This document shows positions 54,199 to 57,210 of a stretch of 64,000 nucleotides of DNA, piece after piece (position 1 is the first letter of the stretch; the number at the start of each line of letters is the position of its first letter). Origin of the DNA: Sulfurovum sp. GTDB lineage: Bacteria; Campylobacterota; Campylobacteria; Campylobacterales; Sulfurovaceae. The position numbers and the translations under genes are program-made. The DNA lies in contig JALWTA010000038.1 in assembly GCA_027082955.1 (NCBI GenBank), forward strand, positions 1-64,000, read 5' to 3'. Under the pieces are notes generated by a model. That model had not been told where the DNA came from, did no database searches, and worked only from the letters and a program-made list of their open reading frames with translations.

Positions 54199-54373
54199 GG
54201 ATTATACCCAAATCTCGAAATAGAATTCTTTGAATTTGTGTTATGCTCGTATTTACGGGGTTTGCAGAAAATTTGAGTCGCACCCGTAGGTTCGGCGATG
54301 GTTTTATGTGAAGCCCGTGAATACGATGATGATACAAAGTCATGAATTTCTATTTCGGGATTTGGGTTATACC
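54199..54373. repeat. ~175-bp fold-back element upstream of dnaX
   Basis: The outer arms pair over about 25 bases (left ATACCCAAATCTCGAAATAG; right CTATTTCGGGATTTGGGT). An inner pairing continues further in (CGTATTTACGGG with CCCGTGAATACG), so the whole segment is one long imperfect hairpin. It fills the ypfJ-dnaX gap. It resembles a MITE; no related transposase is in the window. Confidence 0.7.
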
Positions 54374-54427
54374 AATCAAAAGTAAAAATAGACTACAATA
54401 TTGCTACTTTTAAAAAGAGGAGTCCGT

Positions 54428-56389
54428 GTGTCATTAGCGTTAGCAAGAAAGTACCGTCCCGCCACATTTAACGACCTCATCGGGCAGGAAGCAGTCTCTC
54501 AAACCCTCTCGCAGGCACTGGATAACGGCCGACTCTCACACGCCTATCTCTTCTCCGGACTTCGTGGAAGCGGAAAGACCTCTACGGCTCGTATTTTTGC
54601 AAAAGCACTGCTATGTGAACAGGGCACTTCTTCTCACCCCTGTGGTGAGTGTATCCACTGTGTGATGGCTGCGGAAAACCGCCATATGGACATCATTGAG
54701 ATGGATGCGGCAAGCAACCGCGGGATCGATGACATCAAAGACCTCATTGAACACACCAAGTACAAACCAAGCTCTGCACGCTTCAAGATCTTCATTATCG
54801 ACGAAGTGCACATGCTGACAAATCAGGCGTTCAATGCCCTGCTTAAAACCCTTGAAGAGCCACCTGACTTTGTCAAATTTATCCTTGCAACCACTGACCC
54901 GCTCAAACTGCCGGCGACCATCCTCTCTAGAACCCAGCATTTCCGGTTCAAAAAGATTCCCCAGCAGCTGGTACAACGCCACCTTGAGCATATTCTCAAC
55001 CTTGAACAAATCGGGTTTGAAAAAGAGGCGGTTGAGATCATTGCACGTACCGGTGCAGGCAGTCTGAGAGATTCACTGACGCTGCTCGATCAGGCGATCG
55101 TTTATTCTCAAAACTTTGTCGATGTCGCAACAGTCACAGGTATGCTCGGTATCATCGAACCGAGTCTGCTTGAGAAGCTGCTTGAAGATATTGTCAAAAA
55201 AGATACTGCCGCGATCCTCGACTTTATCAGAATAGCTGCCGATTATGAGGCGGAGATGATCCTCGATGAGCTGACACTCTACCTCAAGAGCCTTCTGCTT
55301 GAAGGCAGCAACAGACTTACTCCTATGATCATCGAGCGCTTCTTCCGGATCATCGCCGAGTCAAAAACCCTGCTTTCTCTTGGAAGCGATGGCGAGTTTG
55401 TCCTCTCGCTGACTCTATTTAAAATGATGGAAGCGCTGCAGATCAAAGATATCGACACAATGATCAAAGGACTCGAACAGGAGCTAAAAGGGGTAGAAGT
55501 CAGCGAAATCGTTGTCACTACACCCGCACCGGATCTCTCTGCACCCAAAGAGGTGATCACCATCACCGAAGAGGAGATCGTAGCAACCCTGCCCGCAGAG
55601 AAAAAAGCACCCGATACAACACCTGCCATGCAGGAAGAGAAGCAAGAAGAGCCCCATGCTGTTGCAAAAACAACACCACAAGAGCCAGAGGTATCACCGT
55701 CTCCAACAACACAAGATACACCACAAACCACCTCAATGCTCAACACTCAGCGCTCAGCACTCAACACCACCCCAAACGAAAGCGCAGAGATCCAAAGCAA
55801 ACCAGATAAACCTCAACAAGAAACCCCTTCCTCAACACTCAGCGCTCAGCACTCAACGCTCAACGCCGGAAAATTCAAAGAACTCATCTCCAAGATCTAT
55901 GACCGAGACTACGACCTTGGCAGCTGTTTTGAACGCAACATCAGCTTTGTCAACTTTTCCGACAACCTGTTGACATGGGAGTCCACTGCCGAAGATGCCG
56001 ACAAGCAGATGCTCATCACCCACTGGGGTGTGATCAACATGTTTGTCAAAGAGCTGTTTGGATTTGAGACCAAAATAAAAAATATCGCTAAAAAAAAAGC
56101 CAGTAGGGGTCTGACCTCACAAAAAGTAGCAGAGAGTAATGAGCAGGTAGCAGGTAGCGGGGATCAATCGATAGAGCAGATACCACAGGAAAATGCTGCT
56201 CATAACGATGCAGACAGCGGCTCTATGATCGAAGAGATCGAGATGAAGAGCTCCTGCATCGCTCCTGATGCTGGTGAAACCGAAGCAGCCAAAGAGAAAG
56301 ACCCCTCAGCCCTGCTTGAAGAGCCCATGGTCAAAACTGCTCTGGAGCTTTTTAATCCCAAAAAGGTTAGGATTAAACGAAATACCTAA
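54428..56389 (+). CDS. dnaX: DNA polymerase III subunit gamma/tau
   Basis: 653 residues, clamp-loader ATPase. Walker A GLRGSGKTSTARIFAKALLCE, the zinc module CEQGTSSHPCGECIHC, DEVHMLTNQAFNALLKTLEEPP and the sensor ATTDPLKLPATILSR are present. A Pro/Gln/Glu-rich linker (~370-490) carries two heptamer arrays. A conserved domain (~495-555) ends at an A9 tract coding KKK. The C-terminal motif MVKTALELFNPKKV is intact. The GTG at 54428 follows GAGGAG; the ORF track starts nine codons earlier. Confidence 0.96.
   Translation: MSLALARKYRPATFNDLIGQEAVSQTLSQALDNGRLSHAYLFSGLRGSGKTSTARIFAKALLCEQGTSSHPCGECIHCVMAAENRHMDIIEMDAASNRGIDDIKDLIEHTKYKPSSARFKIFIIDEVHMLTNQAFNALLKTLEEPPDFVKFILATTDPLKLPATILSRTQHFRFKKIPQQLVQRHLEHILNLEQIGFEKEAVEIIARTGAGSLRDSLTLLDQAIVYSQNFVDVATVTGMLGIIEPSLLEKLLEDIVKKDTAAILDFIRIAADYEAEMILDELTLYLKSLLLEGSNRLTPMIIERFFRIIAESKTLLSLGSDGEFVLSLTLFKMMEALQIKDIDTMIKGLEQELKGVEVSEIVVTTPAPDLSAPKEVITITEEEIVATLPAEKKAPDTTPAMQEEKQEEPHAVAKTTPQEPEVSPSPTTQDTPQTTSMLNTQRSALNTTPNESAEIQSKPDKPQQETPSSTLSAQHSTLNAGKFKELISKIYDRDYDLGSCFERNISFVNFSDNLLTWESTAEDADKQMLITHWGVINMFVKELFGFETKIKNIAKKKASRGLTSQKVAESNEQVAGSGDQSIEQIPQENAAHNDADSGSMIEEIEMKSSCIAPDAGETEAAKEKDPSALLEEPMVKTALELFNPKKVRIKRNT
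55732..55766 (+). repeat. Heptamer array 1 in the dnaX linker
   Basis: Five units CTCAATG, CTCAACA, CTCAGCG, CTCAGCA, CTCAACA, in frame and coding MLNTQRSALNT. A 27-base identical core recurs in the second array but is read in another frame. Confidence 0.8.
55831..55865 (+). repeat. Heptamer array 2 in the dnaX linker
   Basis: Five units CTCAACA, CTCAGCG, CTCAGCA, CTCAACG, CTCAACG, coding STLSAQHSTLNA. It is offset from array 1 by 92 bases, so the same DNA is translated in a different frame. Confidence 0.8.
56090..56106 (+). promoter_or_regulatory. Candidate slippage/frameshift site in dnaX
   Basis: Nine A in frame (AAA AAA AAA GCC) are followed by stops in both other frames: -1 reads AGC CAG TAG, +1 reads CCA GTA GGG GTC TGA. 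dnaX makes a shorter gamma form by ribosomal frameshifting in E. coli and by slippage at an A9 run in Thermus. Product here would be ~559 residues. Confidence 0.4.
56142..56162 (+). repeat. Short heptamer array near the dnaX 3' end
   Basis: AGCAGGT, AGCAGGT and AGCGGGG in frame, coding the EQVAGSGD region. It follows the A9 tract and a small GGGGTC/GACCTC inverted repeat. Confidence 0.5.
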
Positions 56390-57195: not shown

Positions 57196-57210
57196 AAAAA
57201 CTCTTCTGAA

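Follow-up and report, generated by a model that had tools for sequence, protein, structure and literature searches.

The window analyzed here, a 64-kb stretch of Sulfurovum DNA, harbors a dnaX gene (Table 1), identified by its match to NCBIfam PRK08451 (E=5e-216) and by Pfam clamp-loader domains. The first-pass annotation had pointed to a run of nine A's in this gene, and the run is indeed found in the dnaX frame, reading AAA AAA AAA GCC. Its codons are the first past the last strand of domain V. As had also been claimed, stops follow in both alternative frames, although the -1 stop does not come at once: an mRNA with one extra A would be read as KKK-S-Q-TAG, with TAG as the third codon, and an mRNA with one A fewer as KKK-P-V-G-V-TGA. 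The estimate of a short form of about 559 residues lacking MVKTALELFNPKKV agrees with this reading.

Table 1. Features of the dnaX locus and of its predicted products (positions are those of the window)
Feature	Position	Strand	Remarks
dnaX (DNA polymerase III gamma/tau)	54428..56389	+	GTG start, 653 aa/codons, TAA end at 56389
Domain V, folded, kept in predicted short product	55832..56089	+	Residues 31-116 of AlphaFold2 model, a single domain
A9 slippery tract, AAA AAA AAA = Lys555-557	56090..56098	+	Read from sequence; A9/A10 kept in relatives
Linker, lost in predicted short product	56099..56302	+	pLDDT ~50 or lower, residues 121 to 180 of modelled fragment
TAG, -1 frame stop (mRNA with one extra A)	56104..56106	+	559-residue product predicted
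TAGGGGTCTGACCTC, stub of palindromic repeat	56104..56118	+	Whole element at same place in L120 and L149
TGA, +1 frame stop (mRNA with one A fewer)	56112..56114	+	561-residue product predicted
C-terminal helix/tail with MVKTALELFNPKKVRIKRNT, lost in predicted short product	56303..56386	+	Helices 188-204 of modelled fragment

The dnaX tract is the only A9 or T9 in the window, where shuffled sequences give 2.2. The 2.1-Mb genome holds 11 such runs against about 72 expected at the shuffle rate of the window, and most of the other ten appear to be intergenic or 5' of genes rather than inside convincing genes. An A9 in a single gene is by itself unremarkable; the conservation of the tract, its length and the double stops in relatives are together far beyond chance.

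Conservation and age of the run

Relatives were drawn from genus, family and order searches plus GTDB contigs, a few entries being contig fragments, and in-frame A9/A10 runs were counted in the last 160 codons of dnaX. The Sulfurovum-like genus of the window harbors A9/A10 just behind domain V in 58 of 66 dnaX genes (57 in frame, plus one with A9 in another phase); sequences within a genus are related, and such counts are not of independent events. Among the other genera of the family, the run was found in two deep sister genera, g2 (11/11) and g9 (5/5), and in g10 (6/12), g5 (3/4) and g6 (1/1), and an in-frame A9 in none of the 26 dnaX genes of g8. Wherever it was measured in the Sulfurovaceae (82/82 cases), the run was 9 or 10 long and never out of phase. 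In g10, g5, g9 and the L035 clade, it lies several codons farther downstream, in a different peptide context. Absence of the tract from close relatives had been put forward as evidence against slippage. The nearest relative (L014, with 92% identity across the C-terminal fragment) has an identical site, and the reading is not refuted by this check.

In a tree built on the N-terminal 372 residues, with the site left out and with a root and deep branches that are not all well supported, A9 sits in most branches of the family, which argues that the site is old, with losses. Within the genus of the window, seven or eight members lack the run, as do most of g3 and g11; this counts against the slippage reading and suggests that the short form would be dispensable or otherwise made there. 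Three Arcobacteraceae of g63 (L276, L280 and L324) harbor A11-A12 in the same part of dnaX, longer than any run seen in the Sulfurovaceae. A look for comparable signatures in the remaining families of the order gave no clear result beyond isolated cases such as L064.

Repeats neighboring the tract

The first-pass annotation had regarded the site as possibly recent, owing to the repeat fragment beside it. An origin of the A9 via the adjoining repeat was rejected, as the repeat has a far narrower distribution than the tract, and only the fragment behind the tract looks recent. Elsewhere in the genome, the first 13 bases of TAGGGGTCTGACCTC are matched exactly just once. In L120 and L149, palindromic repeats occupy the linker immediately after the A9; they are in-frame insertions that could form strong hairpins (z -6.6 and -4.2).

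Two further repeats were observed. A MITE-like element lies between dnaX and the divergent gene upstream (54204-54376); its 66-nt inverted arms are 77% complementary, and about 8 near-full copies with 76-100% identity are present in the genome. The exact 27-nt direct repeat CTCAACACTCAGCGCTCAGCACTCAAC occurs at 55739-55765 and 55831-55857, in the coding linker before domain V, with a weaker copy at 57206, outside dnaX.

Stops in both alternative frames

The early stops seen in the window are conserved in relatives. A -1 stop occurs within 2 codons in 67% of 82 genes (controls, 10-23%), and a +1 stop within 5 codons in 78% of the 82 (control, 29%). Because many sites share GTAGTTAA, the sites were de-replicated by keeping those that differ at more than 5 positions of the next 18 bases. 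In 81% of the 47 left, a stop is reached within 8 codons in both frames, where the null gives 20% (p at most 5e-4). Stops in both frames are a need of transcriptional slippage and not of a ribosomal frameshift in one direction, and they therefore support a site of the Thermus type.

An unlikely but not negligible alternative is that ribosomes, rather than RNA polymerase, slip into the -1 frame on A_AAA_AAA, as in Escherichia coli. This heptamer is in frame at the tract (A_AAA_AAG is not), and the enrichment of -1 stops would suit such a shift; the enrichment of +1 stops would not. Seven A's suffice for the ribosome, and AAG as the last codon is shiftier in E. coli (PMC5009743), yet what is conserved is a run of 9-10 A's in which every codon is AAA. 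Nor are the stimulators of ribosomal shifting in evidence: an upstream Shine-Dalgarno sequence was found at 6 of 84 tracts, with 11.4 expected, and no constant downstream hairpin was detected (family mean z -0.5; window z +1.65). Strong hairpins are confined to a few relatives, where they come from inserted palindromic repeats, and a conserved RNA hairpin as a general feature was rejected, since it was not found across the family. The tract is very probably, as had been proposed, a dnaX slippage site giving a shorter product without the C-terminal motif. Given the double stops, the run of at least nine and the lack of a Shine-Dalgarno sequence or constant stem-loop, it resembles the site of Thermus more than that of E. 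coli. Ribosomal slippage on A_AAA_AAA could add to transcriptional slippage.

Selection on nucleotides

The linker KKK is encoded as AAAAAAAAA in all 53 genes concerned, whereas elsewhere in the same dnaX genes KKK is encoded in this way in 1 of 7 cases. Codon controls were taken from dnaX itself: AAA has a mean share of 0.78 at 33 conserved Lys columns, and by parsimony the three tract codons have undergone 2, 0 and 0 synonymous changes, compared to a mean of 8.8 at 30 other Lys columns. One other column (474) is likewise all AAA with 0 changes, which weakens this contrast. In L016, the first Lys is replaced by Gln, and nine A's are still kept via the next codon (CAA AAA AAA ACC). These codon patterns argue that it is the run that is kept, not the peptide.

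It is thus very improbable that the tract is maintained for a KKK peptide combined with codon preference, with no second product. This peptide is indeed frequent here, and Lys is preferentially encoded by AAA, but these preferences account neither for the codon usage just described nor for the Gln replacement, the runs in other phases and positions, or the double stops. A phase-variable tract, at which DNA replication slippage would toggle the tail, is the least credible explanation, as the run is out of phase in 0 of 82 genomes and dnaX is a core replication gene, familiar as homopolymer phase variation is in Campylobacterota. Campylobacter jejuni is mentioned beside such variation in PMC1088944.

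Protein architecture

An AlphaFold2 model was obtained for the C-terminal 215 residues of the dnaX product (55742-56386). Over most of domain V, pLDDT in this model of the fragment is ~97, and the A9 tract codes for residues 117-119. The linker behind the tract is, according to the model, disordered. The tail, EPM(V/I)..ALELF.PKKVRIK, is conserved throughout Campylobacterales, and a search with its sequence against the PDB gave no match. A fold search returned no hit below E 0.001; the best hits, all above that value, include small replication domains (DnaA domain I with SirA, and DciA), and domain V of E. coli tau was not among the matches listed. We therefore take the domain to be equivalent to E. 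coli domain V from its position in the protein and a general resemblance, without a fold match.

In E. coli tau, it is the final residues (622-643) that bind the polymerase tail, whereas contact with the fingers is made by the globular part (PMC4703070). By analogy, the C-terminal tail lost here would be the part that binds the polymerase alpha subunit. As the end of E. coli tau binds polymerase, the short DnaX would be expected to load clamps yet hold polymerase poorly.

A putative +1 frameshift in g8 and Arcobacteraceae

The dnaX genes of g8 and of many Arcobacteraceae harbor, instead of A9, a single-copy AAGGA(G/A)-NNN-CCC at the same place, with the variants AAG GAG TTA CCC or AAG GAR GAA CCC, mostly followed by TCC, a sense codon. 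Other Arcobacteraceae, without this motif, have A10-A12 runs instead. The sequence AAGGAGTTACCCTCC, with its Shine-Dalgarno-like element and CCC, is a candidate +1 site. Of the 15 g8 genomes bearing the motif AAGGAGTTACCC, 14 have it once and one (G155) twice; a dispersed repeat was rejected, since the motif is nearly always single-copy and lies in dnaX.

Among the dnaX genes with the motif, a +1 stop lies within 3 codons in 27/31 (control, 31%), and in 25 of these it is the third codon itself; a -1 stop lies within 3 codons in 0/31 (control, 44%). When 175 genomes of the family were scanned for the pattern, about 20 g8 genomes showed the motif with a +1 stop at the same offset. In Arcobacteraceae, AAGGARGAACCCTCC occurs once each in 16 of 104 genomes; 15 of these copies are in open reading frames (ORFs) recognized as dnaX, and the sixteenth ORF ends in the same dnaX tail. 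A +1 stop follows within 6 codons in all 16 and within 3 codons in 15. These counts, too, come from related sequences and not from independent events. In both groups, a Shine-Dalgarno-like element stands three bases before CCC and the early stops are confined to the +1 frame. The A site holds no stop codon, CCC being followed by a sense codon. Among the tRNAs read in one g8 genome (G101), tRNA-Pro(UGG) is the sole tRNA-Pro, which fits slippage at CCC. Listeria phage PSA provides a precedent for +1 shifting at CCC_UCC, and in prfB the shift is stimulated by a Shine-Dalgarno sequence (PMC5009743). The motif of g8 and Arcobacteraceae looks like a prfB-like +1 frameshift.

In L219, AAG GAT TTA CCC TCC is followed directly by an in-frame TAA, with the tail resuming in the +1 frame (near 1680-1700). 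Tau itself may need a +1 shift in this single fragmented genome; the motif fits exactly. L247 (near 1850-1870) likewise meets a stop after domain V in the dnaX frame and has its tail in the +1 frame; it shows no convincing CCC site and may reflect a sequence error.

Discussion

Our results suggest, with a probability that we put at about three in four, that the A9 in Sulfurovum dnaX is a selected recoding site at which RNA polymerase slips, yielding a gamma-like short DnaX beside tau. RNA polymerase would slip on the A9, so that some dnaX mRNAs gain or lose one or two A's. Translation of the slipped mRNAs would run into a stop within a few codons, giving a DnaX of about 559-562 residues that retains its ATPase domains together with folded domain V but lacks the linker and the C-terminal tail. 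Unslipped mRNA would give full-length tau (653 residues).

The comparison with g8 and Arcobacteraceae raises a broader possibility, which we consider somewhat favored: in Campylobacterota dnaX, a cut right behind domain V would be selected, and the mechanism would have been exchanged between RNA polymerase slippage on A9/A10, used by most Sulfurovaceae, and a Shine-Dalgarno-driven +1 shift at CCC, used by a sister genus and by Arcobacteraceae, with the roles turned over in one or two genomes (L219, L247), where tau would need the +1 shift. The importance of a short DnaX beyond the few bacteria studied can here be read from evolution. A slippage site that has withstood rapid synonymous change, located at a domain border, and apparently replaced by another recoding device in sister lineages, argues that a clamp-loader subunit without a tail is useful. 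The family also provides a natural series for comparison: A9, A10, the +1 motif and no site.

Several ways of recoding dnaX are known: -1 frameshifting in E. coli, transcriptional slippage in Thermus and proteolysis in Caulobacter (PMC5009743). In the part of the literature covered, we found no report of dnaX recoding in Sulfurovum or Arcobacter, nor of +1 frameshifting in dnaX. As in E. coli, an A-rich site would let one gene also yield a shorter DnaX. In contrast to E. coli, whose gamma lacks all of domains IV and V, the Sulfurovum site has no Shine-Dalgarno sequence or constant stem-loop, its run is longer than a heptamer, and +1 stops are kept.

Two-ORF poly-A dnaX genes are also described in the main text of the GeneTack study (PMC3711429), where the Campylobacterota genera that we queried are absent except for Helicobacter in one reference. 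These genes share recoding at poly-A, mostly 10 A's, with predicted transcriptional realignment; there, according to that text, tau needs the slip, whereas here tau is the in-frame product. The motif of g8 and Arcobacteraceae, as distinct from the A9 of the window, is comparable to prfB (RF2) and PSA (PMC5009743), with which it shares AAGGAG three bases before the shift codon and the CCC_UCC +1 site. It differs in that it has no A-site stop, that the +1 frame nearly always ends translation, and that it lies in dnaX.

The closest counterpart of the A9 is the dnaX of Thermus thermophilus, for which the same layout has been described (PMC1088944, PMC5009743): an in-frame A9 late in the gene, nearby stops in both frames, a longer product that is the unslipped one, and no evident stimulator. 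According to PMC1088944, slippage is very likely the function of a nine-A run whose length is shared by homologs, and slippage that truncates the product is not easily recognized by comparison; the double-stop test is one way to spot it. In Sulfurovum, we likewise found an in-frame run of at least 9 A's, stops in both frames and a run length kept among homologs. Thermus differs in belonging to an unrelated phylum, and slippage here is read from DNA; moreover, the predicted cut here falls precisely at the end of domain V, and runs of both 9 and 10 occur. The Sulfurovum A9 is probably a further case of the Thermus-type slippage site, and its exchange with a probable +1 frameshift sets the whole apart.
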